Positions 30,969 to 48,569 of a stretch of DNA of 64,000 nucleotides are shown piece after piece. The notes beneath the pieces were generated by a model. That model ran no database searches and was not told where the DNA came from. It saw only the letters and a list, made by a program, of their open reading frames with translations. This stretch comes from Planctomyces sp. SH-PL62 (GTDB taxonomy: Bacteria; Planctomycetota; Planctomycetia; Isosphaerales; Isosphaeraceae). Each line of letters begins with the position of its first letter. Positions within the stretch are counted from its first letter, which is position 1. The translations under genes and the position numbers were made by a program. The stretch lies in the NCBI RefSeq assembly GCF_001610895.1, contig NZ_CP011273.1:3782001-3846000 (forward strand). The letters are read 5' to 3'.

Positions 30969-31651
30969 TCACGCCTCCACGATCCGGCCGTCCTTCATCG
31001 CGATCACGCGATCGGCGGCCCGGGCGACGTCGGTCCCGTGGGTGACGATCAGGAGCGTGAGCCGCCGGTCGCGGCGGAGCCGAGCCAGGAGTTCGAGGAC
31101 CTCCGCCTGCGTCGCCGAGTCCAGATTGCCCGTCGGCTCGTCCGCCAGGAGCAAGGTCGGCTCGTTGGCCAGCGCCCGGGCGATCGCGACGCGCTGTCGT
31201 TCGCCCACCGACAGCCGGCGGGGCAGGTGTTTCGCACGCGGCGACAATCCGACCTCGTCCAGCAGCGCCCGGGCGCGGGCTGCTCGCTCGCCGCGCGGGC
31301 GGTCGGACTCGAACATGGGCACCTGCACGTTCTCAAGGGCGGTCAGCGTGGGGACGAGATGGAACGACTGGAAGACGAAACCCAGCCGGCGGGCCCGGAA
31401 GGCGTCGAGGTCGATCCGGGAGAGAGGCTCGCCGCGGAAGAAGACTTCCCCCTCGTCCGGCCTGTCGAGCCCGCCGAGCAGGTGAAGCAGGGTGCTCTTG
31501 CCGCAGCCGGAAGGGCCGGTGACGGCGACGAACTCTCCCTCGGAGATCGACAACGAGACCCGCGAACGGCCCGCACGTCGCCGTCGGGGTAGGTCTTCTT
31601 CAGGCCCTCGGCCCGGAGCAGGGGGGGCGTGGCCGCGGCGATTTCACTCAT
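30969..31651 (-). CDS. ABC transporter ATP-binding protein, MacB/LolD type (one apparent frameshift)
   Basis: The C-terminal 194 residues contain Walker A GPSGCGKST, Q-loop FQSFHLVP, signature LSVGERQRVAIARALA, Walker B LLLADEPTGNLD and the H-loop IVTHGTD. The spacing and the DEPTGNLDS form mark the LolD/MacB class. The natural start at 31651 (MSEIAAATPPLLRAEGLKKT) lies in another frame. One missing base in the CCC at 31559-31561 (plus strand) joins the frames into a 227-residue protein. Without it, translation would have to start within the Walker A strand at 31553. The start overlaps the stop of the permease gene, so the two form one export complex. Confidence 0.85.
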
Positions 31652-32762: not shown

Positions 32763-32791
32763 CGGGACGTGCCCTCGTTGCCGGAGTCGCC

Positions 32792-33643
32792 TCAGCGCGG
32801 CACCGTGCCGTGCATGACGTAACCCATCTTCATCCAGATCAGCTCATATCGGAAATCGGCCAGGACCTTCCGGCCGATCGCCGGGACGTCCAGGGCTTTG
32901 TGCCGCTCGACCATCTCGGTGAACTCGGGGCCGAGGTTCTTGGTGACCAACCGCTCGAAGTAGCGGTCGAGGCCGGGGAGGCCGATCTTGTGGAACCAGA
33001 GGCGATCGGTCAGGTTCGGGATCTCGTCGGAGATCACGATCGTCCCGCCCGGCTTCACGGCCCGGGCCATCTCGCGCAGGGCCTTCTCGGGGTCGTTGAA
33101 GTAGTTGAAGGCGCCGATGCTCAGGCAGGCGTCGAAGGCACCGTCTCGCACCGGGAGATCCTCGGCCTCGCCGAGCACGAGCCGCACGTCGCGGCCCTCG
33201 GCCCGCTTTCGGCAGTTGGCGAGCTGGACCTTCGAGACGTCGATCCCGACCACCGACCAACTCGCCGGGAGCCACGGGAGGTAGACGCCGTCGCCGACGG
33301 CCACGTCCAGGAGCTTGAGACCCTCCCCGGCCGGGAGATGGCGGAGCACCTTGTTCCGGGATCGCCGCTCGCCGCCGTTGCAGAGGAACGTGTACCACTC
33401 CCAGAACCGGAATTTGGGCCAGAGCGGGCCGTCGTAGAACGCCCTCGCGACCTCGTTGTTGGCGTCGACCCGGTCTCGGACGACCAGGACGTCGTCGGCG
33501 ACCGGGTAGGACGCGCCGCAGGAGGGGCAGCGCAGGGCGTCGGCCGCGTCGTCCATCTCGGCGGGCCCGCCGCAGGCCACGCACCGCCAGAGTCCTCCTC
33601 GCCAGGCGTCCGTCTCATTCTTGGCGGCCACGGCCATCTTCAT
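32792..33643 (-). CDS. Class I SAM-dependent methyltransferase with N-terminal zinc ribbon
   Basis: The protein has 283 residues. The first 45 residues hold two CxxC pairs (RCVACGG and LRCPSCGA), a Trm112-like zinc ribbon. A class I methyltransferase follows, with motif I LLDVAVGDGVYLP near residue 112 and motif IV-type SIGAFNYFND. After that comes a C-terminal helical part. The linker motif ARAFYDGPLWPKFRFWEWY is shared with the methyltransferase encoded just upstream. It probably methylates an O, N or C atom of the operon's lipid product. ATG 33637 is an alternative start two codons in. Confidence 0.85.
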   Translation of the reverse strand: MKMAVAAKNETDAWRGGLWRCVACGGPAEMDDAADALRCPSCGASYPVADDVLVVRDRVDANNEVARAFYDGPLWPKFRFWEWYTFLCNGGERRSRNKVLRHLPAGEGLKLLDVAVGDGVYLPWLPASWSVVGIDVSKVQLANCRKRAEGRDVRLVLGEAEDLPVRDGAFDACLSIGAFNYFNDPEKALREMARAVKPGGTIVISDEIPNLTDRLWFHKIGLPGLDRYFERLVTKNLGPEFTEMVERHKALDVPAIGRKVLADFRYELIWMKMGYVMHGTVPR

Positions 33644-33670
33644 CCTCCCGGGCGGAGCCTTTGGAACCGA

Positions 33671-34414
33671 TCATGAGCGTCCCGTCATGCAATATCCCAG
33701 CCCTCGCCAGATCGTCGTCCGCCGCCAGCCCCCCCGTTCGGGGAACAGCGAGCCGAGGTCGATCCGCTGGGCGAGGACCATGGCCACGAAGTCCGGACCG
33801 AGCCCGAGGAGCCGGAGCCAGGCCGCGTCGATGCTCGGCAGGCCGATCAGGTGGCCGATGCCGCAGCGGTGGAGCCACGGGGCCTCGTCGGCCACGACCA
33901 TCACGCCTCCCGGCCGAGTCACGCGCCGCAACTCGCCGATCGCCGCCTCATGCTCCCCGAAATAGTTGAACCCGCCCACGCAGAGGCAGGCGTCGAAGGA
34001 AGCGTCGGCGAAGGGGAGTCGTTCCGCCTCCGCCCAGGCGAGCCGGCCGGCGAGCGCGGGGAACCGCCGGAGGCAGCCCTCCAGCCGCGATCGGGCGATG
34101 TCGACGGCGTAAACGTCCCAGCCGGGGCCGAGGAACGGCAGGTTGTCGCCGTCGCCGACGCCGACCTCCAGGAGCCGGCCCGAGACCTTCGGCAAGTGCG
34201 CCAGGATCGGCCTCCTCGCCCGCTCCTGGCCCCCCTGGAGGGAGAGGAAGGCGTGCTCCCAGGGGCGGAACCGCGCCCACTCCGGACCGTCGTAGAATGC
34301 GGCCGCGACTCGGTTGCGGCCCGAGAGCGGGCCGATCGCCTCGACGATCCCGTCGCGTGCGGGGAAGTCCTCGCGCCAGACGGACGCCTCGATCTGCGGC
34401 GCAGGCATGTGCAT
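33671..34414 (-). CDS. Class I SAM-dependent methyltransferase
   Basis: The protein has 247 residues with motif I LLEVGVGDGDNLP near residue 80, VYAVDIARSRL as the following acidic strand and CLCVGGFNYFGEHEAAI as the motif IV region. It shares AAAFYDGPEWARFRPWEH and the FNYF element with its neighbour at 32792. It lacks that protein's zinc ribbon. The two look like an ancient duplication with divided specificity. It sits 18 bases after the SDR gene and 28 bases before the second methyltransferase in the operon. ATG 34408 is an alternative start. Confidence 0.85.
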   Translation of the reverse strand: MHMPAPQIEASVWREDFPARDGIVEAIGPLSGRNRVAAAFYDGPEWARFRPWEHAFLSLQGGQERARRPILAHLPKVSGRLLEVGVGDGDNLPFLGPGWDVYAVDIARSRLEGCLRRFPALAGRLAWAEAERLPFADASFDACLCVGGFNYFGEHEAAIGELRRVTRPGGVMVVADEAPWLHRCGIGHLIGLPSIDAAWLRLLGLGPDFVAMVLAQRIDLGSLFPERGGWRRTTIWRGLGYCMTGRS

Positions 34415-34432
34415 CGGGCCTCCTCGCCTCGG

Positions 34433-35221
34433 TCAGAAATCGGTGGTCAGGGCCTTCGGCCCGGCCCGGTCCATCATCCAGTCGTAGAGACGGTTCGGCG
34501 AACGTCGCAGGAACCCCATCCCCAGCGCGGTGAGCCAGGGGAACATGTAATCGCGCGAACCTTTCTCGATCGCCCTGACGATGTGGACCGCCGCCTGCTC
34601 GGGTTCCAGCATCGTCACCGGGCGGGCGAAGGGGACGTCCAGCGTCATGCCCGTGCGGACGAACCCGGGGAAGACGGTCGTGATCCGCACCCCCCGCCGC
34701 TTCAGGGCGGGGCGCAAGCCCTCCAGGTAGGTCCAGACCGCGGCCTTCGACGCCGAGTAGGACGCCATCCACGGCATCCCCCGGAGCCCGGCGACGCTGG
34801 AGATCCCCACGAGGTGGCCTCGACCGCGGCCGATCATGCCCGGCAGCACCGCCTCGAAGGATTGCGCCATGCCCAGCACGTTGACTTCCAGCATGGCGCG
34901 GAGCCCCGCCGTGTCGAGGTCCGGCACGTGGGTCATCCGGCCGACGCCGGCGCAGGCGACGAGCACGTCGCAGGGGCCGAGCACGGCCTCGACCGCGTCT
35001 ACGGCCGCCTGGATCGCCGCCGGGTCCACCACGTCGGCCTCGGCCGCGCAAGCCTCCACGCCCGCCGTCTCGACCCGCCCGGCGACCTCGGCCAGGCGTG
35101 CGGGGTCGCGGTCGATGAGCCCGAGCCGGTAGCCGCGAGCGGCCATCTCCAGGGCGGTCGCCCGGCCGATGCCGTTGGCGGCGCCGGTCACGATCGCGAC
35201 CCGCCCGCGCCCCGGCGTCAT
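34433..35221 (-). CDS. SDR-family oxidoreductase (synthase operon)
   Basis: The protein has 262 residues: VAIVTGAANGIGRATALEMA (NADP site), VACAG strand, GISSVAG with the catalytic Ser, and SYSASKAAVW with Tyr and Lys. FPGFVRTGM follows. The C-terminus (from about 220, LTALGMGFLRRSPNRLYDWM) is amphipathic, as in SDRs that work on long acyl chains at a membrane. ATG 35221 overlaps the hydrolase stop (ATGA). A long in-frame extension to 35665 runs antiparallel to nothing meaningful and is rejected. It could set an alcohol on the released chain. Confidence 0.85.
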   Translation of the reverse strand: MTPGRGRVAIVTGAANGIGRATALEMAARGYRLGLIDRDPARLAEVAGRVETAGVEACAAEADVVDPAAIQAAVDAVEAVLGPCDVLVACAGVGRMTHVPDLDTAGLRAMLEVNVLGMAQSFEAVLPGMIGRGRGHLVGISSVAGLRGMPWMASYSASKAAVWTYLEGLRPALKRRGVRITTVFPGFVRTGMTLDVPFARPVTMLEPEQAAVHIVRAIEKGSRDYMFPWLTALGMGFLRRSPNRLYDWMMDRAGPKALTTDF

Positions 35222-36063
35222 CGGGCCGCCTCGGCGGGGCGGAGCGATTCCAGGAACGTCCGGACGACGGCGACGAACGCCTCCGGGTTCTCCTCGGGCG
35301 CCCGATGCTTCGCGCCGGGGATGACCGAGGCCTGGCAGTTCGGCAGATTGTCGACGAGATAGTGCATCGTGGCGAGGAACGGCGAGCCCTGGCCGTAGAC
35401 CGCCAGCGTCGGCGCGGCGATCCCCCGGAGGACCTCCTCGGTCAGGCCCGCGACGGCCTTCGCGTCGGGGCCGCACGTGGTCCGGCCCAATCGGAGCAGC
35501 CGGCCCATCGCGGGGAGGCCGACCGCCTGGCGGAACTTCAGCATCTTGTTCTCGTCGAGGTGAAGAACCTGGTCGAAAAACTTGTCGAGGTCGTACCAGA
35601 ACTCGTCGGAGAGCGTGACGCCCGCCCCCTCGGCCTCGGCCCGGAACGATTGCCAATGGCCCCATTTGCTCGCGTCTTCCAGATGGCGGAGCGCGGGGAA
35701 GTAGGGATCGGAGAGCACCACCGCCTCGACTCGATCGGGGGCGATCGCCGCGGCGTGCGCGGCGATCACCGCTCCGAAGCTGTGGCCGACGAGCCGCGCC
35801 CGGCTCGCCCCGACGCGGTCCATCAGGGCGAAGAGGTCGGCGGCGTGGTCGGCCGAGGTGTAGCCCTCGGCGGGGACGTCGCTGTAGCCGTGGCCGCGCA
35901 GGTCGTACGCCGTCACCCGATGCTCCGAGGCCAGCTCGGTCATCGCCTTGCAGAGGTACCAGATCGAGAGGTCCCCCGTCACGCCGTGGATCAGCACCAC
36001 GTCCGGCCCCTCGCCCGCCTGCTGGACGTGGAACCGACGGCCGTCGATGTCAAGCTTCGGCAC
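35218..36063 (-). CDS. Alpha/beta hydrolase (likely chain-release thioesterase or esterase)
   Basis: The protein has 281 residues of the alpha/beta-hydrolase fold. It has an oxyanion-hole motif VVLIHGVTG, DLRGHGYSD, the nucleophile elbow VGHSFGAV (Ser95), an acid in the ...VLSDPYFP region or near 225, and a late His in GAKHRAPEENPEAF. Neither synthase protein carries a thioesterase domain, so this free hydrolase is the best candidate for releasing the finished chain. That role is inferred. Its ATG lies 14 bases inside the end of the ACP gene, which is typical of translational coupling. Confidence 0.85.
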   Translation of the reverse strand: MPKLDIDGRRFHVQQAGEGPDVVLIHGVTGDLSIWYLCKAMTELASEHRVTAYDLRGHGYSDVPAEGYTSADHAADLFALMDRVGASRARLVGHSFGAVIAAHAAAIAPDRVEAVVLSDPYFPALRHLEDASKWGHWQSFRAEAEGAGVTLSDEFWYDLDKFFDQVLHLDENKMLKFRQAVGLPAMGRLLRLGRTTCGPDAKAVAGLTEEVLRGIAAPTLAVYGQGSPFLATMHYLVDNLPNCQASVIPGAKHRAPEENPEAFVAVVRTFLESLRPAEAAR

Positions 36064-36358
36064 GGGGCAGATCCTCGTGATGGATGTGGGCGGCGAGGAA
36101 CGCGGCCAACTCGCCCAGGGTCAGGTCGCGGTCTTCTCGACGCCCCAGGTCGGCCATCAGGTCGACGAAGGGGAGCGGCCGGCCGTAGCGTTCCTGGAGC
36201 GCCTCGCCGAGGACCACGGCGTCGATCGACGCCAGGCCGAGGTCGGCGAAGAACCGCGTGTCCGACCCCAGCGGCCCGGAATACTCGCGCCCCTGGAAAT
36301 CGTCGAAGACGCGGGCGAGGTCGGCGAGGATCGCCGGTTCGGTCGCGGGCTGGGTCAT
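36050..36358 (-). CDS. Stand-alone acyl carrier protein
   Basis: This 102-residue acidic helical protein has the carrier-protein core FFADLGLASIDAVVLGEALQ. Ser44 is the expected phosphopantetheine site (LASID instead of the usual LDSL). The helix III region LTLGELAAFLAAHI follows. The synthase itself has one ACP, so this second free carrier may take the chain to tailoring enzymes or load a starter. The start is the ATGA overlap with the PPTase-domain ORF at 36355. A longer frame to 36640 has no start signal. Confidence 0.85.
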   Translation of the reverse strand: MTQPATEPAILADLARVFDDFQGREYSGPLGSDTRFFADLGLASIDAVVLGEALQERYGRPLPFVDLMADLGRREDRDLTLGELAAFLAAHIHHEDLPRAEA

Positions 36359-37614
36359 CTTTCGGCCTCCGAATATCGGGGGGGGCGTGCGTGCGGCCGG
36401 GACGTCGCGAGGCCTAGCCGGGTCCACGCCCAGACGTAATCGCCCCGACGCGCCGCGTGGACGAGGAAGGGGCCGGGGCCCTGGTCCGGGCAGGCCGCGG
36501 ACAGCGAGGGCCCCAATCGGACCTCGATCGCCCCGGCCGCGTCGGCCGCGACGACCGCCACGCTCGACGGGGTCGCCGACGACGCCATCCCGGTCGCCTT
36601 GGCCGCCGCCTCCTTGGCCGTCCAGAATCGCGCGATCCACTCCGCGCGGTCTCCGCCCAGGTCGTCCAGCAGCGCCCGCTCGGGCTCCGAGAACGCCGCC
36701 CTCTCGAAGGACGACGGCCGTTCGGCGACCGTCTCGACATCGATCCCGACGCGAGCTCCCGGGATCGCGGAGGCGACCGCGACGGCCACCCCCCCCGCAT
36801 GGGCGATCGACACGGCGGGCAGGCCGCCGCGCGCCCGGTCGTCGAGGGATCGCAGCACGGGCCGGCCGTCGGCGTCGGGCAAGATCGAGAGGTCGGCTGG
36901 GAAGGTCGGCGGCGCACCCTCATGGTCCCAGAGCCGGCGGGCGGCCTCCTTGGCGGCGATCCGCCCCCAGAGTCGGAGCGTTCGCCGGCCCTCGGCCCCG
37001 GCGGGACGGAGCGGCCCCGCCCGTTCCTCGGGCGAGAGCTGGGTCTTCTCCAGGACGTCGCGCCAGACGGGCCGGCCCATGTCGGCCGGCGGCTCCAGCC
37101 AGACGGCGACGGCCTCGCCCGGCTCGATCCCCGGCAGCCCCATCGGCTCGCCCAGGAAGACCTGCTCGGGTGCGCGGAAGACGTCGCGATAGCGAGCCGG
37201 CCAGTGGAACCGCCAGTCCTCCCAGTCGAGCAGCCGCATCCAGACGCGGCCGTCGGGGTGGAGGATCTCGGCGTCGGCGCGCAGCTTGAACCTCTCAAGC
37301 GACGTCACGCGGACGCAGCAGCGGCAATCGGCCCCCTCGGGAGGGTCCTCGCCGTAGATCTCGAGCCCGCCGAGGCGGAGCGGGAAGACCACGTCCCCCT
37401 CGGAGAGCCGATCCAGGCCCCAGAGGCCCATGAGGTGCGTGAACGAATCGAGGACGATCGGGTCCGTCAGCGGCCTCGGGGCCGACCCCCCGCGATAGAG
37501 GCCGCGGCGCGGTAGCACTCGGAGGACGCCGTCGATCCCCCCCCCATCGACGGGGCCGACCTCGGAGACGGCCTGCAAAGCCGGGCCGTGGAAGAGCCAC
37601 TGGTCGGCGTACAT
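36355..37614 (-). CDS. C-terminal half of synthase 2: dehydratase C-part plus 4'-phosphopantetheinyl transferase
   Basis: The frame begins inside a PKS-type dehydratase domain (MYADQWLFHGPALQAV, the typical second hot-dog motif). It has 419 residues. Residues 1-185 finish the dehydratase. From about 280 an Sfp-type phosphopantetheinyl transferase follows, with RVGIDVETVAERP and the WTAKEAAAKATGM motif (F/WxxKEAxxK) for Mg-CoA binding. In the next frame, just upstream, the sequence reads on smoothly as EASQFDAHS before this Met. One G missing from the GGGG at 37672-37675 would join this ORF to the KS-AT ORF. It is then not a separate gene, and the internal ATG is not a true start. Confidence 0.82.
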   Translation of the reverse strand: MYADQWLFHGPALQAVSEVGPVDGGGIDGVLRVLPRRGLYRGGSAPRPLTDPIVLDSFTHLMGLWGLDRLSEGDVVFPLRLGGLEIYGEDPPEGADCRCCVRVTSLERFKLRADAEILHPDGRVWMRLLDWEDWRFHWPARYRDVFRAPEQVFLGEPMGLPGIEPGEAVAVWLEPPADMGRPVWRDVLEKTQLSPEERAGPLRPAGAEGRRTLRLWGRIAAKEAARRLWDHEGAPPTFPADLSILPDADGRPVLRSLDDRARGGLPAVSIAHAGGVAVAVASAIPGARVGIDVETVAERPSSFERAAFSEPERALLDDLGGDRAEWIARFWTAKEAAAKATGMASSATPSSVAVVAADAAGAIEVRLGPSLSAACPDQGPGPFLVHAARRGDYVWAWTRLGLATSRPHARPPRYSEAER

Positions 37615-40600
37615 CGAATGAGCGTCGAACTGGCTCGCCTCTGGTGCGGCGAGCGGCCGAGACGTCGCCTCGGGGCGGCCTCCCGGCCGTGGCCGAAGAT
37701 CACGACGCCCTCGACTTCGGGGTCCTCGCCGAGTCCGGCCGGCCCCCGGTTGAACAGCGACGCCCGGACCTCCCCCGGCCGTTCCGGGTCGACCTGCGCG
37801 ACCACCTCGAGCGGGATCGGAGCGTCCTCATAGCGGATCCATCGCCGTGCGCGGACCTCCCGGAGCCCGACGATGGTCCGCCCCGGCATGAGCCTCGCGG
37901 CCACCTGCGCGAGCATCTCGGCCATCACGGTGAACGGCAGGACCGGCAGCCCCCTCATCGTCGGGTCGACGGCCGACACGCGACGACCCCCGAACGTGTG
38001 ATGTTCCGCCACCGGATCACCGGCCGCGTCCAGGTTGATCACGGCCTCGACCGAGACGCCCGGCTCGATGCGGCGGACCTCGCCGGCCCACGGTCCCGGG
38101 CCGAACTCCGGCGGCGAGGACGGGCCGGCCGGCTCCTCGATGGCTGCGGAGTTGAGGTACTCCTCCATCACCCGTCGCTGCGTCCGGAGGAACTGCTCCA
38201 TCGTGCCGAGGCGTGCCAGCATCGCCTCGTCGGCGGCCGCGTCCGCTTCGAGCGGGGCTTCTTCCCGCGGCGACGCCGGAGGCGTCGGGACGGGCCGGGC
38301 CTCCGTCCGGGCTCGGAGTCGGCTCGCCACGGCCTCCGTCAGCCGGATTTCCGGGAAGCCGACCTGGAGCGCGACGACCGGCCCCGGCGCGGGGGGCGGG
38401 GCGTCGAGGTCGACCGGCTCGGGCCGGCGACGCATGTAAAGGTGTTCGGGGGTGATCGGCAGGCCCTGGGCGAACAACGAGGCGACGAGGTGGTTGAGCT
38501 GGGTCAGTCCCGACCTCCTCGGCACGTTCGCGGCGACGGCGAACGCGGGCCGCCCGCGCAGGACGTCCTCGGCGAAATTTGCGAGGTTGCCGCGGGCGCC
38601 CACGTCGATGAAGACGCGCACGCCGTCGGCGTGCATCGCCTCGACCGTCCTCCGGAATTCCACCGGGCGGGTCCATTGGGCGACGGCCAGCCGACGGACC
38701 GCCTCTGGGTCCTCGTCGAACCGTCCCGCCGAGCAGCAGGAATACAGGGGCGTCGCCGGCGACTTGACGTCGAGCCTGTCGAAGAACTCCCGAATCGGGC
38801 CGACCGCGGGGGCGAACGCCGGCGTGTGGTAGGCCCGCGAGAACGGCAGCTCCTCCGTCATCACTCCCGCGTGACGGAGGCGGCTGACCACGGTTTCGAC
38901 GGCCTCGGGGACGCCCGCGAGGACGACCTGACGAGGGCAGTTGTCGACCGCGACCGAGACGACGCCGTTAAGCTCCCCGATCGCAGCTTCGGCCCGTTCC
39001 CGGCTGGTCGCCGCCCCCACCAGGCGCGCCGAGGCCACGCCGCCCGAGGAGTCGAGTCGGGCGAACACCGCGGCCATCTCGTTGAGATGAATCTCGAAAT
39101 CCCGATCGACCTGGACGGCCCCCGCGGCGGCCAGGGCGAGGAACTCCCCGCTGGAATGGCCCACCACGGCCGTCGGCCGCACGCCCAGATTGCGGAGCAG
39201 CCCATGGAGCGCCCACTGAGCCGTGAGCACGACGTTGATCGCCGTCCCCATCCGCCACAGCTCGGACTCGTCGGTCGTCCCGAACAGGCCATCGCTCGGC
39301 GGCTCGATCGCCCCGGATTCGATCGCGAGCCGGTCCGCCGCGTCGAACCGGGCCCGGACCTCCGGGAAGTGGGGGCAGAGGTCGGCGAGCATCCCCGGGT
39401 ATTGCGACCCCTCGCCGGGGAACAGCAATCCGACGCCCCCGTCGCGCCCAGCGGGAGCCTCCCAGAAGTAGGCGCCGCGCGAGTCCCGGATCGACGTCCG
39501 CGCCGGGTCTTCCAGCCTGCTGGTCAAGGACTCCAGCCGATCGACGAGATCCGCCGTCGACTCGACCACGAGGCCGAGGCGCGACCCCGCACGGTCCGCC
39601 GTCGCCTCCCGCGCGAGCGTCGCGGCCAGATCCTTCAGGACCACGTCCGGCCGGGCGCGGAGCCGGCTCGCGAGCCGTCTCGCCGCGGCGGCCAGGGCCG
39701 TACGATCTTCGGCCGCGAGCAGGATCGCCTCGGACGGCCAGGTCAGCATGGCCCCGGGCGTCGCGGAGTCCGCCGAGGCGGCATGCTCCTCCAGGATGGC
39801 GTGCGCGTTGATCCCCGCGAATCCGAAGGCGTTCACGCCGGCCCGCCGGGGCGAGGCTTCGCCGTTGATCCACGGCCTGGCCGCGGGGTTGAGCGTCAGC
39901 CCGCTCCCGCGCAGGAGACGGTGGGGCCGGTCGGCGCCTGCGCTCGGGGGGAGCATTCGGTGGTGCAGGCCGAGCGCCGCCTTGATGAGGCCGGCCATCC
40001 CGGCCGCCGGCATCGCGTGGCCGATGAAAGCCGAGGCCGCGCCCAGGACCCGGCGACCTCTACGCCCGCCCGTAGGGAAGGCTGCGCGCAGGGCCCGCAA
40101 CTCGGCCCGATCGGCCGCGGGGACGCCGATCCCGTGCCCCTCCACATAGCCCACCGTGGCGGGGTCGACCCCCGACGTCTGGTAGGCCCGTCGCATCGAC
40201 CGCAGGTGGCCGCGCGCGTCCGGCGCGGCGAGGCCGGCGCCGCGGCCGTCGCTGGCGACGCCCACGCCCTTCAGCACCGCGTAGACGCGGTCGCCGTCGC
40301 GCTCGGCGTCGGCCAGCCGCTTGAGCACCACGACGCCGACCCCCTCGCCAGGCACCAGGCCGTCGGCGTCCTCGGAGAAAGGCCGCGACCGGCCCGATGG
40401 CGAGAGGCCGCCGAGGCGCGAGAAGACGAGCCGGAAATCGACGTCGGCCTCCAAATACACGCCGCCGACGAGGGCGAGCTCCGCCCGCCGGCCGACCACG
40501 GCCCGCGCCCCCAGGTCCAGCGCGACCAGGGCCGAAGCGCTGGCGGCGTCGACTACGAAGCTCGCGCCCGCAAGGTTGAATTGATCGGCGATCCGGCCCG

Positions 40601-41177
40601 CAGTGGCGTTGGTGAGCTGGCCGGGGATCGTGGAGGCCTCGAACGGGGGGAGGCCGGCCCGCAGGTCCTCGCGGGCGGCTTCAACCTCGGCCTCGGACCA
40701 TTCGGGATGCAAGGATCGAAGGATGCCGAGCGTCTGCTCCAGGATCCGGCCGTGCTGGAGGCGCGCGAGGTTGCCGCGGTTGAAATAATTGCCCCGGCCG
40801 ACGACGACCTCGATGCGGCGGCGGTCGGGCAGGCGATCCAGGAGGCCCGCGTCTGCCAGCGCGGAGCGAGCCGCGTCGAGCATGAGGAACTGTTCCGGCT
40901 CCCCCCCCGCGACGGTCCTCGGCATGATCCCGAATGACGCCGCGTCGAATGCGATCGGCTCGTCGAGGTAGCCGCCGCAACACCCCGCGACTCGCCCCGG
41001 GGAGGTCGAATCCGGGTCATGAAAGGTGGCGGCGTCCCAGCGGCTTGCGGGCGCCTCGGAGATGGCCGAGCGGCCGGCGAGCGCATTTGCCCAGTAGGCG
41101 CACAGGTCCCCCGCGCCGGGGAACCGGCAGGCCATGCCGACGATCGCGACGTCCAGCGGACGAGGCCTCCGGCTCAT
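37467..41177 (-). CDS. Synthase 2, N-terminal part: KS (Cys to Ser)-AT-dehydratase, PfaB/PfaC-like
   Basis: The order is ketosynthase (about 8-445), acyltransferase (about 580-880, GEGSQ and GHSSGE with Ser675), an Ala/Pro/Arg-rich linker and the dehydratase from about 1050 (HHTFGGRRVSAVDP, LPVLPFTV). In the KS the active-site context is VDAASASAL, so Ser213 replaces the catalytic Cys. Both catalytic His motifs remain as EGHGIGV and GHAMPAAG. This suggests a decarboxylating or chain-length-factor KS, not a condensing one. ATG 41177 overlaps the stop of synthase 1 (ATGA). Past about residue 1170 the frame is lost and continues in the ORF at 36355-37614. The repaired protein would have 1607 residues. 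Confidence 0.88.
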   Translation of the reverse strand: MSRRPRPLDVAIVGMACRFPGAGDLCAYWANALAGRSAISEAPASRWDAATFHDPDSTSPGRVAGCCGGYLDEPIAFDAASFGIMPRTVAGGEPEQFLMLDAARSALADAGLLDRLPDRRRIEVVVGRGNYFNRGNLARLQHGRILEQTLGILRSLHPEWSEAEVEAAREDLRAGLPPFEASTIPGQLTNATAGRIADQFNLAGASFVVDAASASALVALDLGARAVVGRRAELALVGGVYLEADVDFRLVFSRLGGLSPSGRSRPFSEDADGLVPGEGVGVVVLKRLADAERDGDRVYAVLKGVGVASDGRGAGLAAPDARGHLRSMRRAYQTSGVDPATVGYVEGHGIGVPAADRAELRALRAAFPTGGRRGRRVLGAASAFIGHAMPAAGMAGLIKAALGLHHRMLPPSAGADRPHRLLRGSGLTLNPAARPWINGEASPRRAGVNAFGFAGINAHAILEEHAASADSATPGAMLTWPSEAILLAAEDRTALAAAARRLASRLRARPDVVLKDLAATLAREATADRAGSRLGLVVESTADLVDRLESLTSRLEDPARTSIRDSRGAYFWEAPAGRDGGVGLLFPGEGSQYPGMLADLCPHFPEVRARFDAADRLAIESGAIEPPSDGLFGTTDESELWRMGTAINVVLTAQWALHGLLRNLGVRPTAVVGHSSGEFLALAAAGAVQVDRDFEIHLNEMAAVFARLDSSGGVASARLVGAATSRERAEAAIGELNGVVSVAVDNCPRQVVLAGVPEAVETVVSRLRHAGVMTEELPFSRAYHTPAFAPAVGPIREFFDRLDVKSPATPLYSCCSAGRFDEDPEAVRRLAVAQWTRPVEFRRTVEAMHADGVRVFIDVGARGNLANFAEDVLRGRPAFAVAANVPRRSGLTQLNHLVASLFAQGLPITPEHLYMRRRPEPVDLDAPPPAPGPVVALQVGFPEIRLTEAVASRLRARTEARPVPTPPASPREEAPLEADAAADEAMLARLGTMEQFLRTQRRVMEEYLNSAAIEEPAGPSSPPEFGPGPWAGEVRRIEPGVSVEAVINLDAAGDPVAEHHTFGGRRVSAVDPTMRGLPVLPFTVMAEMLAQVAARLMPGRTIVGLREVRARRWIRYEDAPIPLEVVAQVDPERPGEVRASLFNRGPAGLGEDPEVEGVVIFGHGREAAPRRRLGRSPHQRRASSTLIRCTPTSGSSTARLCRPSPRSAPSMGGGSTASSECYRAAASIAGGRPRGR

Positions 41178-44100
41178 CGGGTCGCCCCTGCGACGGCCTG
41201 CGGACGCCGGATCGGCTCGTCGAGCGAGCCGAGGGCGCCCGCGACCACGACCTCGACGTCCCCCTTGCGCCCGTGCATCAGCTCGTCGATCAGCGCGGCC
41301 CGGCCGACGTCCGGCGGGATCATCCCGAGGCCCCGCCGACCGAGATGCCCTTCAAGGTCGGAGACCATCCCTAGGCCGGACCAGGGACCCCAGTTGATGG
41401 AGACCACCCGACCCGGCCAGCGGCGGTCGAGCCAGACGGCCAGCTTGTTGAGCGACTCGTTCGCGGCCGCATAGTCGACCTGGCCCTTGTTGCCGAACCG
41501 GCCCGCCACCGAGGAGAAGAAGACGGAGAAGCGGAGCGCCTCCGGTCGGAGCAGCCTCGCCAGGTTCAACGCGCCGTCGAGCTTCGTCCCCAGGACCCGG
41601 TCGAACGAATCCGGCGTCTTGTCGCGGAGCAGCTTGTCATGGATCACGCCCGCCCCGTGGATGAGGCCGACGGGGTCGCCGTACCGGCCGCGCCAACGGT
41701 CCACGACGCGGGCGAGGGCCCCGGCGTCGCGTACGTCGGCGCGGGCGTATTCGACGACGGAGCCGGCCGCTCGCAAGGTCCTCAGGCTGTCGCGGATCTC
41801 CCGCTCGTTGAGGAGCCCGCGGTAGGCTCGCTCCAGCTCGGCGGGAGCCTCGCGGCCCGCGAGGCGACCGCCCTGGAGGAGCGCCGCCTTGATCTCGGCG
41901 GCCGTCTCCAGACCCCGCGTGAGCGGGTCCTCGGCGTCGGCCGGCGGCGGGCTCGAGCCGACGAGCAGGAGCGTCGGACGCCAGCGGAGGGCCAACTCCT
42001 CGCAGACGCCCGCCGTGATTCCCCGGGCACCGCCGGTGACGAGGACCGGCTCGCCGGGCGCGAGCGAAAGCAACGACGCCGACCTGTCGAGCGCGGCCGG
42101 GATGGTCCGCAGCCGGATGCGGCGGCCGTCGCGGTAGCCCACCTCCGGCCAGCCGTCGTCCGAGAGGGCCTCGGCCGCCAGGATCTCGGCGAGGCGGGCG
42201 ACGGCCTCGCCGGGGTCGAGGTCGACCACGCGGGTGCGCACCGCGGGCAGCTCGCGAGCCAGGGTCTTCAGCAGGCCGGCGACGCCTCCCTGGCCGGGGA
42301 AGAAATCGTCGGGGGCCGACCCGGTCGCCGCGAATGCGCCGCCCATTGCGGTCGCCGCGATCAGACAAGCCCCGCCGTTGAGAGCGGCCCGTTCGAGGTC
42401 GTCCGACGCGGCGCGGGCCAGCAGGAAGAGGCTCTTCACATCGGCCCCCATGCGGCGTCCCCACTCGCCGGGGTCCAGGCCCGGGGGCTTCCCGGCCCGG
42501 AGCGGCAGGGCGTGGACGACGCCGGCGATCGGACCCGTCTCGCGGGCCGCGTCGAGCGCGGCGGCGATGGACACCGGCGACGTAAAATCGACCCCCTCGG
42601 TCGAGAGGATCTTCACGGCCCGCCCCCCGGCGCGGATGGTCTTCCCCAGGGCCTGGGCCACGCCGCGGCCGTCGTCGGTCAGCACGACGACGCCGCCGCG
42701 CATCAGGCCGTCCGGCTCGCCGTCGAGCGCGGCGTCGACGGCCTCCAGGGTGGACCGTCGCACGGCCGAGGCCGACCCGCCGGCGGGCGCAGGCGTCTCC
42801 CCCGAGGGCTGCGGCTCCCGAGGGGCGGGGCGGCGGACCTCGACCGCCGCCGAGGCGCGGTCGACGATCTCTCGGAGCGTCCGGGCTCGCGAGAGGGAGT
42901 CCATCAACGAGGCGTCGTCGGCCGATTCGAGGCCGGCGACCGACTCGCGGAGCGTCCCGAGGATCTCGATCCGCTTGATCGAATCGATGCCGAGGTCGGC
43001 TTCCAGGTCCAGGTCGAGCTTGAGCATCTCGGCCGGGTAGCCCGTCCGTTCGCGCACGATCGCCACCAGGCGTTCGGAAATCGCCTCGGGCCCCATGGCC
43101 GTCGCCGCCGGCGTTTCGGGGACCGCCGCCGCCCGGGCGGCCTGGACGACGGGCGTCGGCCTGGCGGGCGTCCGGTCGTACGCTTCGAGGCCGCGTCCGG
43201 CCGGCGGGGGCGTCGCCTGCACGGGGTGGGGGGCGTCGACCGCCCGCGTCGGCCTCCGGCCCAGGTAGGCGAGCATCGTCGCCTCTTGCGTCGCCAGGAA
43301 GGCTCGCATCGTCTGCTGGAACGCTTCCATGACGCGGGCCGCGCCCGGATCCAGTGGGGTGGCGGGGGCCGCCGCCTCGGGGCGAGGTGTGCCGTTCGGG
43401 GCTTCGACCGGAAGGGGCGCGTCGTGACCATTCCCCCGGCCGTTTGCGGAAGGCCTGGGCCCGTCGGTCCGGTACTGGTCCATGAGCGCCTCGGGGCCGT
43501 GCCGCCCGTTCGCGGGCCCAGTCGCCCGGCGACCGTCGCGTGGAGGGGCGGTGTCGAAGAAGTCGGCGGACTGGCCGAGCCGCCTCGGCTCCGGCGCGCC
43601 GAGGGGCCGGGACCGACTGCCGTTGACGAGCCAGGTGGAAGGGGACGGCGCCGGCGAGCCGTCGCCGATCGGCGGGCGCTCGGGGTCGATGCGCCGCGCG
43701 TCCCGCCCGGCCGTGAGTCGCGCGGGACGGAAGACGACGCCCGCGGCGGCGAGCTTTGCAAGCGCCTTCAGGAGGGCAGGGACGCCAGGGCGCCCCGGGG
43801 CGTCCGTCGAGACCGCGCGATGCGGTCGGTCGCCGAGGATCGACCCCACCATCGCGCCGAGAGCCGCTCCGGGCCCGACCTCGACGAAGACGCGTGCGCC
43901 CGCCGCGTGCATGGCCTCCACCATCTCGGCGAAGCGGACCGGCGACGCGAGATGCTCGCCGAGGCGGTCGGCGACGGCGAGCGGGTCGGCCGGGTGGGGG
44001 GCGGCGTCGAGGTTCGAATAGACCGGGAGTTCGGGCGAGGCGGAGAGGTGCAGTCGGGCCGACTCGGCCAAAGGCCTCCCGGCGGGGGCGACGGCCTCGG

Positions 44101-47100
44101 AGTGGAAGGCGCAGGCGACCGGCAGCTCGGCGACGCGGAGCCCGTGCGAGCGGGCGCGCCCGGCGACCCGGTCGATGCCCTCGCGAGGGCCCGAGACGAC
44201 GGTCTGCTTCGGCCCGTTGAGGTTGGCGATCACGACGCGATCGTCGGGGTCGAGCAAAGCGGCGACGGCCTCGGGACCGCCGGCGATGGCGGCCATCGCG
44301 CCGGGGCTCGCGACCGCGGCCTCGGCCATGAGCCGGCCCCGGGCCTCGGCGAGCGTCGCGAGGCCTTCGGCCCCCATCGCGCCGGCCGCGTGCAGCGCGA
44401 CGAGCTCGCCGAAGCTGTGCCCCCCGAGGACGTCCGCCTCCACCCCCAGGGCGTCCAGGAGCCGAAGCATCCCGACGCAGGCCGCGCCGATGGAGGGCTG
44501 GGCCGCGTCGGTCGCGGTCAGCTCGCGACGGGCCCGATCGCAGGCGGCGGCGTCGAGCGCCGGGGGAGGGAAGATCCGGGGCGTGACCGGCATGCGCCCC
44601 TCGGCCCGCAGGGCGGCGTCGAACGCCTCGTAGGCCTCGCGCACCTCCGGGAAGGTCGCGGCGAGGTCGCCGAGCATCTCCAGCGACTGCGAGCCCTGGC
44701 CGGGGAAGAGGAACGCCACCCCAGCGTCGTTGAAGGCCGGGCACGCCGCGTACTCGATCCCTCGGGGGTCGCTCAGGGAGTCGCGCCCGGAGGAAACCGC
44801 CTCGCGGGCGGCCGCGAGCTTGGCCTTGAGGTCGTCGAGCGAGGAGGCGACGATCGCCAGCGTCGGCCGCGACGTGGCGGCCGGATCGAAGCGGTCGGCC
44901 AGCGACCGCGCGAGGTCGCGGAGCCTCGGGGCGGCGCCCTCGGCCAGCGACCGCTCCAGCCGTTCGAGCGATGCGGCCAGGGTCGCGGACGTCTCGGAAC
45001 GCCAGAGGAGCAGCTCGGCGGGCCATTCGCGCGAGGCCGCCGGCGCGGGCGTCAGATTGCGATCGTACGCCTCCAGCACGGCGTGGAAGTTCGTCCCGCC
45101 GAACCCGAAGGCGCTGACGCCCGCCCTCCGCGGTCCCGTCGCGTCGTCGTGGAACCACGGGCGCAGCTCGGTGCTGACGCGCAGGGGGCCGTCGGCGAGG
45201 TCAGCCCTCGGGTTGACCACGTCGACCCCGGCCGTGGGGGGCAGGATCTTGTGGTGGAGCGCCAGCGAAGCGTTGATCAGACCCGCGATCCCCGCCGCGC
45301 ACTTCGTGTGCCCGATCATCGACTTCACCGAGCCCACGGCGCAGGACGCCGCCGCGGCGCCCGCCTCGCGGAGCAGCCCGGCGAGGGCGTTCATCTCGAC
45401 GACGTCCCCCACGGCCGTCCCGGTGCCGTGGGCCTCCACGTAGCCGATCGTCGCGGGGTCCACGCCCGACTTCGCATAGGCGCGGCGCAGGGCCCGGGTC
45501 TGGCCATCCACGTTTGGTGCCGTCAGCCCGCGGGCGCGGCCGTCGCTCGACGAGCCGACCCCTTTGATCACGGCGTAGATCCGGTCGCCGTCGCGCTCGG
45601 CGTCGGCCAGCCGCTTGAGCACCACGACGCCGACCCCCTCGCTGATGACGATCCCGTCGGCCGTCGCATCGAACGGGCGGCAGCGGCCGCGCGGGGAGAA
45701 CGCATGGGTCTTGCTGAAGGCCAGGTAGGTGTGCGGGTTCTGGACCGTGTCGGCCCCGCCGAGGATGACCATGTCCGCCGCGCCGGTCTCCAGCTCGCGG
45801 ACGGCCAGCGCGGCCGCGGCCAGCGACGACCCGCAGGCGGCGTCGACGGTGTAGTTCGAACCTCCGAGGTCGAACCGGTTCGCCACCCGGCCGGCGGCGA
45901 CGTTCAGCAGGAAGCCGGGGAACGAGTCCTCGGTCCACTCGGGCAGCAGGGGCGCGGCCGCCTCGCGGACCGCCCTCGCCGCCTCCGGGGCCACGGATTC
46001 GAGCATCGGGAGGTAGGAGCGGAACGCATACCCCATCGCCAATTGGGCCGCCCCGCCCCCCATCCCCAGGACCACGGCCGTCCGATCGCGGGGGAAGGGA
46101 CGGTCGGCGTACCCGGCGTCTTCCAGGGCTTCGCGGACGGCCTCCAGGACGAGCAGCTGGACCGGCTCCACCGAAGGCAGGCTCGACGGCGGCATCCCGT
46201 AGCGGAGCGGGTCGAAGGGGACGTCCGGCACGAAGCCGCCCCACCTGGAAACGACCTTGTCCGGGGCCTTCGGGTCGGGGTCGTAATAAATCCGCCAGTC
46301 CCACCGATCGGGGGGGATCTCGGCGATCGAGTCCACCTTCTGGAGCGTCCGCTCCCAGAACGTGCGGGCGTCGCCGGCGCCCGGCATCACGGCGGAGAGG
46401 CCGACGATCGCAACGTCTGAAGGCGTGGCGGGCGGGGGAGTCGATGCGGCTTCCGCGACGGCCTCGGCGAGCACGACGTCGCAGCCATCCGCGATCGCGC
46501 CGTGCAGGTCGGCGATCGTCGTGACGCTCTCGCGCAGGGAGGCGACCTGGCCGAGCATGTAGGCCCCGCGATCGTACTGGCCGGCCTCGTCGACGGGGAC
46601 GAGCGGCGACGCGGCGTCGCCGACGCGCTCCATCCCCTTGGTGGCGATCCGCAGCCGCCCCGCGTTGAGGTTCTCGAGTCGAGAGCGGATCTCCTCGGCC
46701 GTCCGGCCCTCGGCGGCGAGCCGGCGTCGTGCGTCCGCGAAGGCGTCGGCGAACGGCGAGGGGCCTACGCGGATCTCGTGGCCCGGGCCGGTCTCCAGCA
46801 GGACCGTCCCCCGGCAGCGGATCGCCTCGGCCTGGAACTTGGGCACGATCGCGCCGGTCCTCACGGCCTCCTCGGTGAAGAGATAGGCCGTGCCCAGCAG
46901 GACGCCCACCTTCGCGCCCAGGGCTGCGAGCGGGGCGGCGATCGCCGCAACGGCCGCCGACGATCGGGCGTCGTGGACGCCGCCGGCGAACAGGATGTAG
47001 AGTTCCTCGGCCGGGGTACCCCGGTCGACGGCTTCCAGGAGCGCGGCGACGGCCTGCTCCCAGAGGACCAGGCTCGACCTGGGCCCGACGTGGCCCCCGC

Positions 47101-48415
47101 ACTCGCGGCCTTCGAGGACGAACCGCCGCGCGCCGGCCTGCAACTGCTGCGCGAGCAGGCCGGGCGAGGGGGCGTGCAGGTACGTGCGGATCCCCGCGTC
47201 TTCCAGCTCGCGGGCCTGGTCGGGCCGGCCGCCGGCGATGAGGGCGAACGGCGGGCGGGCCTCGCGGACCGCTTCGATCTGCTCGCGCCGCAGCTCGGGC
47301 CCGATGAAGCCGAGCACGCCCACGCCCCAGGGGCGACCATCGAGACGCGCCCGGACGTCTTCCAGCAGGTCACGCACCTCGGCCCCGCGGAGCATCGCCA
47401 GCGCGAGGAAGGGCAGGGCCCCGCCGGCGGCCACCGCGTCCGCAAAGGCGGCGCGATCGCTGACCCGCGTCATCGGCCCCTGCACGATCGGGTAGGTCGT
47501 GCCATGCGCCTCCGCCAGGGGCGAGCCGGCGGCCATCGGGCGCAGCGATCGCGACTGCTCGAGGCCGGTCTCGATCGCCTCGGCGACGGCCCGGACGATC
47601 CCGCCGGTCGTCACGTGGCGCCGCGCGAGGCGGGCGGCGAACGCCGCGTCCTGGCCGATCGGCCAGAGTCGCCCCGACGCCCAGCCGATCGCGTCTCGCC
47701 CCAGGGATTCGGCCCGGCCGGGGACGAGGGGACCCGGCCGCGCGTGCACGCGGGCCTCCGCGCCGTCCGCGAGCCGGACGAGCGAGGTTTCGGAGCCGTC
47801 GAGCCGCGCGATCGCCTCGCGCGTCGTCTCGTCCAGCGGGCTTTCCTTCGCCAGCAACAGCCCGCCGTCGAGGACGACGCCCGCGGCGCCCGCGGCCACG
47901 CAGCCGGCCGCCGAGAACGGGCCGATCCCGCCACGGACCCAGGCGGGCGCCCCGCCGTCGGCGAGTACGGCCTGCAGCAGGACGAACGAGGATTCGACGC
48001 CACATCGACCGCCGGCCTCGTTGCCGACGAGGATCACCCCCGCCGCCCCGGCCTCGCTGGCTCGCCTCGCCTGCGTGCGGTCGGTCGCCTCGAACAGGGC
48101 GGCCCGGCCCGCCGCGGCGATCCGCCTGGACGCGGCTTCCCACCTCGCGTCGTCGCCGCCGACGACGCAGACGACGTCGGCCTGCGGCGGGAGCGAGGCG
48201 AGCCACGCGTCGTCCACCGCGGTCGGATCGATGCGAATCCCGACCCGGCCTCCCAGCGCCGCGGCCCGCTCGACGGCGGTCTTCGCCGACCCGGGCTCGA
48301 CGCCCTCGAGGTCGAGGATTCCCAGGGCTCCGGCACGCGAGGCGGCGATCGCGATCGCCGCCCCGTCCGTCCCGCTCGGGGCCGTCGCCAGGATACGTGG
48401 CAGGGGTCGGCTCAT
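41174..48415 (-). CDS. Synthase 1: tandem PfaD-like enoyl reductase-KS-AT-ACP-KR multienzyme
   Basis: The protein has 2413 residues. Residues 1-290 and about 308-600 are two nitronate-monooxygenase/PfaD-like TIM barrels, with parallel motifs GNEAGGRCG and GRECGGHVG. KS (about 668-1105) has DAACGSS (Cys861), EAHGTGT (His996) and GHTKCAAG (His1036). AT (about 1233-1545) has GQGSQ, GHSFGE (Ser1334) and the malonyl-type AFHS. One ACP has LGIDSIKR (Ser1812), the form seen in PUFA synthases. KR (about 1880-2413) has VLVTGGARGI, FFSSVAGRFGN and DYAAANESLN. The start ATG 48415 is better than 48523, which adds a basic polar tail. The set gives iterative chain extension with ketoreduction and enoyl reduction. 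Confidence 0.92.
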   Translation of the reverse strand: MSRPLPRILATAPSGTDGAAIAIAASRAGALGILDLEGVEPGSAKTAVERAAALGGRVGIRIDPTAVDDAWLASLPPQADVVCVVGGDDARWEAASRRIAAAGRAALFEATDRTQARRASEAGAAGVILVGNEAGGRCGVESSFVLLQAVLADGGAPAWVRGGIGPFSAAGCVAAGAAGVVLDGGLLLAKESPLDETTREAIARLDGSETSLVRLADGAEARVHARPGPLVPGRAESLGRDAIGWASGRLWPIGQDAAFAARLARRHVTTGGIVRAVAEAIETGLEQSRSLRPMAAGSPLAEAHGTTYPIVQGPMTRVSDRAAFADAVAAGGALPFLALAMLRGAEVRDLLEDVRARLDGRPWGVGVLGFIGPELRREQIEAVREARPPFALIAGGRPDQARELEDAGIRTYLHAPSPGLLAQQLQAGARRFVLEGRECGGHVGPRSSLVLWEQAVAALLEAVDRGTPAEELYILFAGGVHDARSSAAVAAIAAPLAALGAKVGVLLGTAYLFTEEAVRTGAIVPKFQAEAIRCRGTVLLETGPGHEIRVGPSPFADAFADARRRLAAEGRTAEEIRSRLENLNAGRLRIATKGMERVGDAASPLVPVDEAGQYDRGAYMLGQVASLRESVTTIADLHGAIADGCDVVLAEAVAEAASTPPPATPSDVAIVGLSAVMPGAGDARTFWERTLQKVDSIAEIPPDRWDWRIYYDPDPKAPDKVVSRWGGFVPDVPFDPLRYGMPPSSLPSVEPVQLLVLEAVREALEDAGYADRPFPRDRTAVVLGMGGGAAQLAMGYAFRSYLPMLESVAPEAARAVREAAAPLLPEWTEDSFPGFLLNVAAGRVANRFDLGGSNYTVDAACGSSLAAAALAVRELETGAADMVILGGADTVQNPHTYLAFSKTHAFSPRGRCRPFDATADGIVISEGVGVVVLKRLADAERDGDRIYAVIKGVGSSSDGRARGLTAPNVDGQTRALRRAYAKSGVDPATIGYVEAHGTGTAVGDVVEMNALAGLLREAGAAAASCAVGSVKSMIGHTKCAAGIAGLINASLALHHKILPPTAGVDVVNPRADLADGPLRVSTELRPWFHDDATGPRRAGVSAFGFGGTNFHAVLEAYDRNLTPAPAASREWPAELLLWRSETSATLAASLERLERSLAEGAAPRLRDLARSLADRFDPAATSRPTLAIVASSLDDLKAKLAAAREAVSSGRDSLSDPRGIEYAACPAFNDAGVAFLFPGQGSQSLEMLGDLAATFPEVREAYEAFDAALRAEGRMPVTPRIFPPPALDAAACDRARRELTATDAAQPSIGAACVGMLRLLDALGVEADVLGGHSFGELVALHAAGAMGAEGLATLAEARGRLMAEAAVASPGAMAAIAGGPEAVAALLDPDDRVVIANLNGPKQTVVSGPREGIDRVAGRARSHGLRVAELPVACAFHSEAVAPAGRPLAESARLHLSASPELPVYSNLDAAPHPADPLAVADRLGEHLASPVRFAEMVEAMHAAGARVFVEVGPGAALGAMVGSILGDRPHRAVSTDAPGRPGVPALLKALAKLAAAGVVFRPARLTAGRDARRIDPERPPIGDGSPAPSPSTWLVNGSRSRPLGAPEPRRLGQSADFFDTAPPRDGRRATGPANGRHGPEALMDQYRTDGPRPSANGRGNGHDAPLPVEAPNGTPRPEAAAPATPLDPGAARVMEAFQQTMRAFLATQEATMLAYLGRRPTRAVDAPHPVQATPPPAGRGLEAYDRTPARPTPVVQAARAAAVPETPAATAMGPEAISERLVAIVRERTGYPAEMLKLDLDLEADLGIDSIKRIEILGTLRESVAGLESADDASLMDSLSRARTLREIVDRASAAVEVRRPAPREPQPSGETPAPAGGSASAVRRSTLEAVDAALDGEPDGLMRGGVVVLTDDGRGVAQALGKTIRAGGRAVKILSTEGVDFTSPVSIAAALDAARETGPIAGVVHALPLRAGKPPGLDPGEWGRRMGADVKSLFLLARAASDDLERAALNGGACLIAATAMGGAFAATGSAPDDFFPGQGGVAGLLKTLARELPAVRTRVVDLDPGEAVARLAEILAAEALSDDGWPEVGYRDGRRIRLRTIPAALDRSASLLSLAPGEPVLVTGGARGITAGVCEELALRWRPTLLLVGSSPPPADAEDPLTRGLETAAEIKAALLQGGRLAGREAPAELERAYRGLLNEREIRDSLRTLRAAGSVVEYARADVRDAGALARVVDRWRGRYGDPVGLIHGAGVIHDKLLRDKTPDSFDRVLGTKLDGALNLARLLRPEALRFSVFFSSVAGRFGNKGQVDYAAANESLNKLAVWLDRRWPGRVVSINWGPWSGLGMVSDLEGHLGRRGLGMIPPDVGRAALIDELMHGRKGDVEVVVAGALGSLDEPIRRPQAVAGATR

Positions 48416-48569
48416 TGTCGAAGTCGATTCCTCTGGGACGTCGCGAGACGCGCGTTTCGGCTGCTCCTCCTTACGTTGTCGACTGGGTGGAGATGCAGGC
48501 TTGAAGAATTGAACGTCCAGCAAAGTCCGTGCCGGCTCCGGCGAGCGGCGATCGGGCTCGGGGAGAGGT

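Follow-up and report, generated by a model that had tools for sequence, protein, structure and literature searches.

What does a ketosynthase (KS) domain do once serine has replaced its catalytic cysteine? The question is raised by a 64,000-nucleotide stretch of the genome of Planctomyces sp. SH-PL62 (family Isosphaeraceae; contig NZ_CP011273.1, positions 3,782,001 to 3,846,000; hereafter the window), which encodes two proteins, synthase 1 and synthase 2, resembling the synthases of polyunsaturated fatty acids (PUFAs) and each containing a KS followed by an acyltransferase (AT). The second KS (KS2), in synthase 2, has Ser213 at the catalytic position. We argue, with a probability of roughly 0.6, that KS2 is a non-condensing pseudo-ketosynthase that serves as a partner, wall or scaffold, in the manner of a chain-length factor (CLF) or of the degenerate KS of PfaB (PfaB KS'), and that it is dispensable.

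The catalytic site of KS2

Synthase 2 is encoded on the minus strand, as are all features of the two synthases and of the genes downstream of them that are given below. Its gene is split into two open reading frames (ORFs). The first (1236 aa, 37467..41177), the translation of which contains VVDAASASALVAL, encodes KS2 (residues 1-430, P0001; 39888..41177; Pfam PF00109 and PF02801), AT2 (38520..39425, with GHSSGE and an invariant His) and the first half of a dehydratase (DH) domain; the second (419 aa, 36355..37614, with PS-DH and ACPS matches) continues with the second half of the DH and a phosphopantetheinyl transferase (PPTase). The frame changes from -1 to -3 inside the DH region, around 37635..37671 (tblastn with six orthologues gives matches on both sides); this may be a real break, a programmed shift or an assembly error.

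As claimed in the initial annotation, KS2 reads DAASASAL (codons at 40527-40550) with Ser213 in place of the catalytic Cys: the Ser codon, AGC at 40539..40541, aligns with Cys163 of Escherichia coli FabF (this and the other FabF equivalents come from an alignment to the E. coli protein, in mature numbering). Both catalytic His are kept, His348 (40134..40136; FabF His303) in EGHGIGV and His387 (40017..40019; FabF His340) in GHAMPAAG. Two further positions differ from those of Cys-type KS2s: Ile350 (40128..40130) stands where these have a Thr of the HGTGT motif (FabF Thr305), and Ser382 (40032..40034) where they have Lys (FabF Lys335). We ruled out GHAMPAAG as an unusual motif: GHxMPA- or GHxIPA-like motifs are common among Cys-type KS2s.

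Ser and Cys among orthologues

We searched 45 Isosphaeraceae genomes; outside the family, 45 genomes had an AT2-DH match, and 20 of these were examined for architecture; 174 stretches were confirmed in a scan of a genome collection, and the best 80 were kept as a named set. There are 16 full-length KS2 orthologues of the window type in Isosphaeraceae, and 15 of them have Ser together with both His (the window, L045-L051, L065, L070, L072-L074, L079 and L081). The sixteenth, L067 (G057), has Gly (GGG), Gly and Pro at the three positions, so that both His are gone as well. The Ser codon is AGC or AGT in all 15; the corresponding Cys codon is TGC or TGT in each of 11 Cys-type genes taken for comparison. 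The named Ser loci L105-L112 and L115 are contigs already among the 15 and were not counted twice, and four loci with synthase 2 cut by a contig end (L071, L075, L077 and L078) are outside the Ser counts; in L071 the contig ends before the Ser position, and both His are visible. The initial annotation had proposed aligning orthologues to see whether Ser is fixed, and had named Cys in close relatives as the sign of a local error or recent mutation; Ser is fixed among the close orthologues, so this objection falls.

Eleven loci have Cys-KS2 clusters of the same architecture (L053, L054, L055, L057, L061, L080, L094, L097, L100, L102 and L104). Among the best 80 of the 174 stretches, nine, all from Isosphaeraceae, have Ser and the other 71 have Cys; hosts of the latter include Cyanobacteria, Pseudomonas, Desulfobulbaceae, Acidobacteria, Chloroflexi, Brocadia and others. 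The catalytic Cys is present in 82 out of 82 Cys-type second-KS rows, a paralogous cluster of the host itself included (at least one genome is counted twice, as L122 and L054 are from the same genome). The first KS (KS1) keeps Cys-His-His in 50 out of 50 KS1 rows. The scan of viral contigs yielded 16 matches to the pattern, none of them a relative.

Some orthologous loci have peculiarities of their own. In L046 (8323-13280; G014, the contig of L115, Singulisphaera sp. GP187), whose KS2 is included among the 15 Ser rows, synthase 2 consists of two overlapping ORFs with the break inside AT2. An extra acyl carrier protein (ACP) match is found between AT2 and DH in synthase 2 of L050 (2579-8188, G019) and L071 (1976-6253, G043), and the synthase 1 ORF of L049 (7920-13139, G006) has no enoylreductase (ER) match.

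Other catalytic residues

We compared the 15 Ser-type KS2s with 79 Cys-type KS2s in one alignment (from the 82 Cys rows L120, L145 and L150 were dropped as short). Position 213 is S in 15/15 versus C in 79/79, and His348 and His387 are present in all 94. Thr350 is found in none of the Ser-type domains (Leu or Ile instead) versus 77 out of 79 Cys-type ones, which agrees with the initial annotation that Thr residues around the first His are changed. Lys382, which it had not mentioned, is likewise absent from all Ser-type domains (S in 13, A in two) and present in 79/79 Cys-type ones; the K of GHTK was considered as the catalytic Lys and ruled out by the alignment to FabF. Position 352 (FabF Thr307) is V, L or I in the Ser type, and I (38), T (36) or others in the Cys type.

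The Thr residues of HGTGT bind pantetheine, and Lys328 and His298 of FabB matter in decarboxylation. The FabF Lys335 position is, we assume, that of the conserved extension lysine of type II KSs. Extending type II KSs have Cys-His-His and an additional conserved lysine needed for efficient extension (PMC12664062; statements from this and the other cited papers refer to excerpts of them). The losses of Lys382 and Thr350 therefore speak against condensation and against decarboxylation alike: of the residues of an elongating KS, the Ser-type domains retain the two His (15/15) and have neither the Cys nor the Lys.

Erosion of KS2 in related loci

The Ser-type domain is accompanied in related loci by successive states of loss, from a dead site to absence, through which KS1 and AT2 persist. 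The site of L067 is dead in a KS2 that is still full length. Relics of KS2, of 34-282 residues, are found in seven loci: 282 residues without the site in L052 (G002), 161-171 residues in L066, L076 and L084, and one 34-residue piece passing the KS2 profile in each of L083, L069 and L068 (the L083 gene has a second weak piece in a separate comparison). All of Cys-His-His is gone in L067 and L052. Where recognisable, the relic stretches are the first strand (AIVGM), an ADALADAG-like helix, LKR-DAERDGDRIYAV and an ALALxHRVxPP helix. Finally, no second KS was found in 16 out of 16 scorable sister synthases (L060, L062, L085, L087-L093, L095, L096, L098, L099, L101 and L103), the synthase 2 ORF having been compared with a Ser-KS2 profile, and all ORFs of at least 120 aa in the stretch with KS1 and KS2 by BLAST; a seventeenth such locus, L086, is cut by the contig end just before AT2 and its KS2 absence is not scorable.

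In the KS1-AT1 tree (this and the KS2 tree, the latter under LG+G4, are quick trees with supports from the Shimodaira-Hasegawa-like approximate likelihood ratio test, SH-aLRT, only), the KS2-less clade (15 rows, support 91; L086 and L099 have no synthase 1 and are outside this tree) is sister to a clade with the Ser, dead and relic types (21 rows, support 100); the two join at 99, with the Cys types outside. Relics sit in three places on this tree, and a single relic clade is rejected by the approximately unbiased (AU) test (p-AU 8.7e-8, run after the tree had been seen). The site or most of the length of KS2 has been lost at four places on the KS1 tree, that is, in four losses if a Ser-KS2 cannot be regained. 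The KS2 tree unites the Ser rows and L067 in one clade (support 100). We take the direction to be loss rather than gain because KS1 and every Cys-type KS2 carry Cys, because of the KS1 tree, and because the relics contain KS2 fragments.

AT2 stays intact beside the eroding domain: all 20 synthases aligned, five relics among them, have its catalytic Ser and His. The ratios of nonsynonymous to synonymous substitution rates (dN/dS) of relic segments are 0.43, 0.30 and 0.19, versus 0.15, 0.07 and 0.06 for AT2 in the same pairs.

Constraint on the Ser-type domain

Ser-KS2 is under strong purifying selection and is constrained as much as Cys-KS2. The KS2 dN/dS values are 0.167, 0.063, 0.073, 0.095 and 0.074 for five Ser pairs and 0.190, 0.142 and 0.122 for three Cys pairs (approximate values: some pairs have members in common, and dS exceeds 1 in three); between L065 (Ser) and L067 (dead) the KS2 value is 0.495 and that of KS1 0.143. 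The ratio of KS2 to KS1 distances has a median of 1.43 over 66 Ser pairs versus 1.36 over 55 Cys pairs. With low dN/dS and a distance ratio close to that of the Cys type, Ser-KS2 is therefore a domain that is being kept.

Invariant sites number 140 out of 428 in Ser-KS2, and 42 sites are clade-specific (invariant in the Ser clade, with <60% elsewhere); 18 of the 42 fall within 37 of the 428 residues (p 8e-11, for segments picked post hoc). The first newly fixed segment, residues 124-144 (40746..40808), aligns with FabF 102-112 plus an insertion, and 18 of its 21 residues are invariant, 12 being clade-specific; the second, residues 178-193 (40599..40646), aligns with FabF 131-143 and has ten of 16 residues invariant, six being clade-specific. 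The same segments in ten Cys subsets, which are nested, reach at most 9/48 (p 0.014) and 4/16 (p 0.04). FabF 102-112 and 131-143 presumably contribute to the wall of the acyl pocket, where the subunits of the dimer meet. KS1 of the Ser clade also has six out of 16 clade-specific sites in the segment corresponding to 124-144 (at least 95% of 20 rows, relic lineages included).

What the Ser-type domain may do

Under the reading that we favour, KS1 together with AT1 would load malonyl and KS1 would perform all condensations; Ser-KS2 would no longer elongate and would act as a partner, wall or scaffold. It could line the acyl channel across the KS dimer as a CLF does, or could keep AT and ACP in position as proposed for PfaB KS'. 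Since KS1 and AT2 would be enough for a synthase to work, such a role would be dispensable, and lineages no longer needing it would have dismantled the domain. The CLF-like variant is plausible from the position of the newly fixed segments, and the initial annotation, which spoke of the chemistry of a CLF or of a decarboxylase, fits in its first half, with a non-condensing domain, but not in its second. In Moritella, formation of the acetyl starter is attributed to the KS of PfaA and the last elongation to the KS-CLF of PfaC (PMC12895367).

Several observations weigh against this reading. Besides the post hoc choice of the two segments, the fixed sites of KS1 persist in relic lineages and are therefore independent of a complete KS2, which weakens the argument from coevolution; and relics have neither segment, so a chain-length role cannot survive there. 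Ser213, His348 and His387 are invariant in 15 out of 15 domains and would not obviously be needed by a purely structural one (with 140 of the 428 sites invariant, however, invariance of all three is only mildly unlikely by chance). In the KS2 tree the branch that separates all Cys rows has a support of 53, so the Ser clade may lie either inside or outside the Cys types. The linker between KS and AT has dN/dS values of 0.33, 0.24 and 0.22, similar to those of the relic segments, so the relics are not demonstrably freer than the linker. Lastly, synthase 2 of the window itself contains a frame change.

It is possible, though we put it forward tentatively, that Ser-KS2 represents a type I KS of a new functional class, Lys-less and non-elongating with a Ser-His-His site, in which Ser213 would serve acyl transfer or hydrolytic editing, or which would shape the channel of KS1 in trans. 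If so, the planctomycetes compared here would preserve the path from a two-ketosynthase to a one-ketosynthase lipid synthase, through the change of Cys to Ser, the full-length dead domain, the relic and absence.

Somewhat less probable, but the most serious rival, is that Ser-KS2 is still an enzyme, with an oxyester on Ser213 from which the acyl group is passed to ACP or hydrolysed (transacylase or editing activity). The invariance of Ser and both His and the strong purifying selection would suit it, and there is a precedent in DpsC, the priming KS of daunorubicin synthesis, which self-acylates with a Ser118-His297-Asp302 triad and transfers the acyl group to its ACP (PMC12664062). DpsC, however, is a FabH-like, stand-alone type II enzyme with Asp, not a His-His KS; in the window Ser213 stands with His348 and His387, these being the columns in which a triad was looked for. 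The losses of Lys382 and Thr350 would also point away from ACP-bound chemistry, and several lineages lost the site yet kept KS1 and AT2.

We consider it unlikely that Ser is a passing stage in the plain decay of a useless domain. The relics, the absence of KS2 in relatives, and the frame change in the window gene and frame break in the G014 gene would all be expected from decay, but Ser-KS2 evolves at dN/dS of 0.06-0.17 like the Cys type, with its invariant sites and a KS2/KS1 distance ratio close to that type, and a real loss of the site in a full-length domain (L067) gives 0.50.

Even less credible is a decarboxylase making an acetyl starter from malonyl-ACP, although the initial annotation held that a Cys to Ser change with retained His would suit this chemistry. 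KSQ decarboxylases have Gln at the Cys position and keep the His, and their Lys and Thr are retained too. KS2 shares the two His with them, but has Ser in all 15 domains rather than Gln, and neither Lys nor Thr350. The starter step is moreover described as a task of PfaA-KS in a characterised synthase (PMC12895367), and the site is missing in eight eroded relatives, as is KS2 in the 16 scorable KS2-less synthases. A predicted structure of KS2-linker-AT2 (mean predicted local distance difference test score, pLDDT, 88.6; predicted template modelling score, pTM, 0.91; 35 sequences) has KSQ-AT structures (7vee, 7uwr, 8in9 and 9iyw) among its 50 listed structural matches, but ordinary KS-ATs are also there and rank first, namely the KS-AT didomains of the polyketide synthases (PKSs) Lsd14 and CurL. 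The TM score is about 0.44 over the model chain, a low value presumably due to differing domain placement. The claim of decarboxylation thus finds no support.

That Ser213 is a sequencing error or a mutation private to the window can be dismissed: Ser, encoded by AGC or AGT, is present in each of the 14 other full-length orthologues that keep the His.

Relation to known systems

Inactive KS domains are already known, among them CLFs, PfaB KS' and the KS without Cys of Type B pfaB (PMC3098273). PfaB KS' of gammaproteobacterial PUFA synthases (PDB 9RY8) resembles KS2 in the KS-linker-AT order and in having lost KS catalytic residues; in Shewanella baltica it is shortened to residues 1-255 before an active AT, and it is described as a flexible part of a monomeric protein, with a scaffold role proposed for it (PMC12895367). 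All of Cys-His-His is absent there, whereas KS2 keeps Ser-His-His and its full length in 15 orthologues, close to its Cys-type relatives. KS2 also lies within a KS-AT-DH-PPTase protein, and related planctomycetes show the steps that lead from a changed site to a missing domain.

With the CLFs of type II PKSs and PfaC KS-CLF, KS2 shares a KS fold without Cys and clade-specific constraint on segments aligning with the pocket and interface region; unlike them it keeps both His. The initial annotation drew a parallel to the CLF-like second KS of PUFA synthases, which is a loose one: the aligned CLF of a separate KS-CLF protein of the host genome (L056) has Glu at the Cys position and neither His. 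CLFs can be short, as in the 211-residue CLF of aryl polyene synthesis (PMC12664062), a paper that also gives DpsC as a KS in which Ser replaces the Cys.

The KSQ domains of PKS loading modules (e.g. GfsA and PikA) are likewise non-elongating KS-ATs with the Cys replaced and the His kept; beyond the residue differences given above, KS2 is not part of an assembly-line loading module. The closest relatives are the two-KS iterative synthases with the architecture (ER-)KS-AT-ACP-KR plus KS-AT-DH-PPTase (KR, ketoreductase) and homologous domains, with gaps at contig ends or where domains were undetected, in Cyanobacteria, Pseudomonadota, Desulfobulbaceae, Acidobacteria, Chloroflexi, anammox bacteria and others. 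These synthases, to which the secondary lipid synthases described by Shulse and Allen in 2011 (PMC3098273) are related, differ in their KS2, which has Cys in all 71 loci from outside the Isosphaeraceae Ser group among the best 80 of 174.

Neither in the literature listings searched nor in the excerpts of PMC3098273, PMC11804610, PMC12895367, PMC12664062 and PMC7138838 did we find a synthase of this type that has a KS with fixed Ser and relatives at various stages of losing it, nor, by title and beginning of the abstract, any paper on the KS2 domain among the matches listed for Isosphaeraceae genera and PKSs. The origin of inactive KS domains such as CLF and PfaB KS' is usually visible only as an end point. 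The planctomycete loci offer a series in homologous synthases (Cys, Ser, dead, relic, absent), with a Cys paralogue cluster in the host genome, in which the probable course is from an active enzyme part to a helper part and then to disappearance; the stages allow a direct test of how the product changes when Cys in the second KS gives way to Ser and the domain then vanishes. The case is also a warning against calling a decarboxylase from retained His motifs alone: Lys and Thr need checking.

Operon and genomic context

The gene of synthase 1 (ER-KS1-AT1-ACP-KR; 41174..48523, 2449-aa ORF, start codon uncertain) precedes and overlaps that of synthase 2. Its KS1 (45224..46417) has the Cys-His-His and HGTGT intact, all motifs being normal (DAACGSSL, EAHGTGT and GHTKCAAG), and AT1 has GHSFGE and AFHS. 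Domain order and homology of both proteins match the two-KS PUFA-like synthases, with Ser213 instead of the catalytic Cys that these have in the second KS. Against the omega-3 PfaA model TIGR02813, synthase 1 scores 997.3 and synthase 2 467.8 bits, both below the cut-off of 1010.1; synthase 2 has no match to the PfaB family profile TIGR02816 at E 0.001, and the L056 protein matches it at 83.2 bits (below the cut-off of 144.3). The host planctomycete carries three PUFA-like synthases in its 6.78 Mb genome (G000): that of the window, the Cys-KS2 sister cluster L053 (G000:C1, about 350-358 kb) and L056, a Pfa-like KS/KS-CLF cluster at 1603-1612 kb of G000:C1.

After the synthases (29957-36063) lie genes for a hydrolase, two short-chain dehydrogenases/reductases (SDRs), two methyltransferases and a MacB/FtsX permease. 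They include an alpha/beta hydrolase (35218..36063, PF00561), an SDR oxidoreductase (34433..35665, with a Pfam match from residue 155, so that the true start is probably further in) and the methyltransferases MT5 (33671..34414) and MT6 (32792..33643). The SDR-methyltransferase part recurs in Ser and relic loci, and the dead locus has the SDR: within the stretches examined, a window-like SDR gene adjoins 14 out of 16 Ser-group loci (the window and L071 included), the one dead locus and five out of seven relic loci, but none of the 11 Cys loci and one of the 17 KS2-less loci. Upstream of the synthases, a fatty acid desaturase gene (PF00487, 52325-53434) is found on the opposite strand; farther along the window are an OPT transporter ORF (57226-59475) and a DNA methylase (N6_N4_Mtase) ORF (60039-62705).

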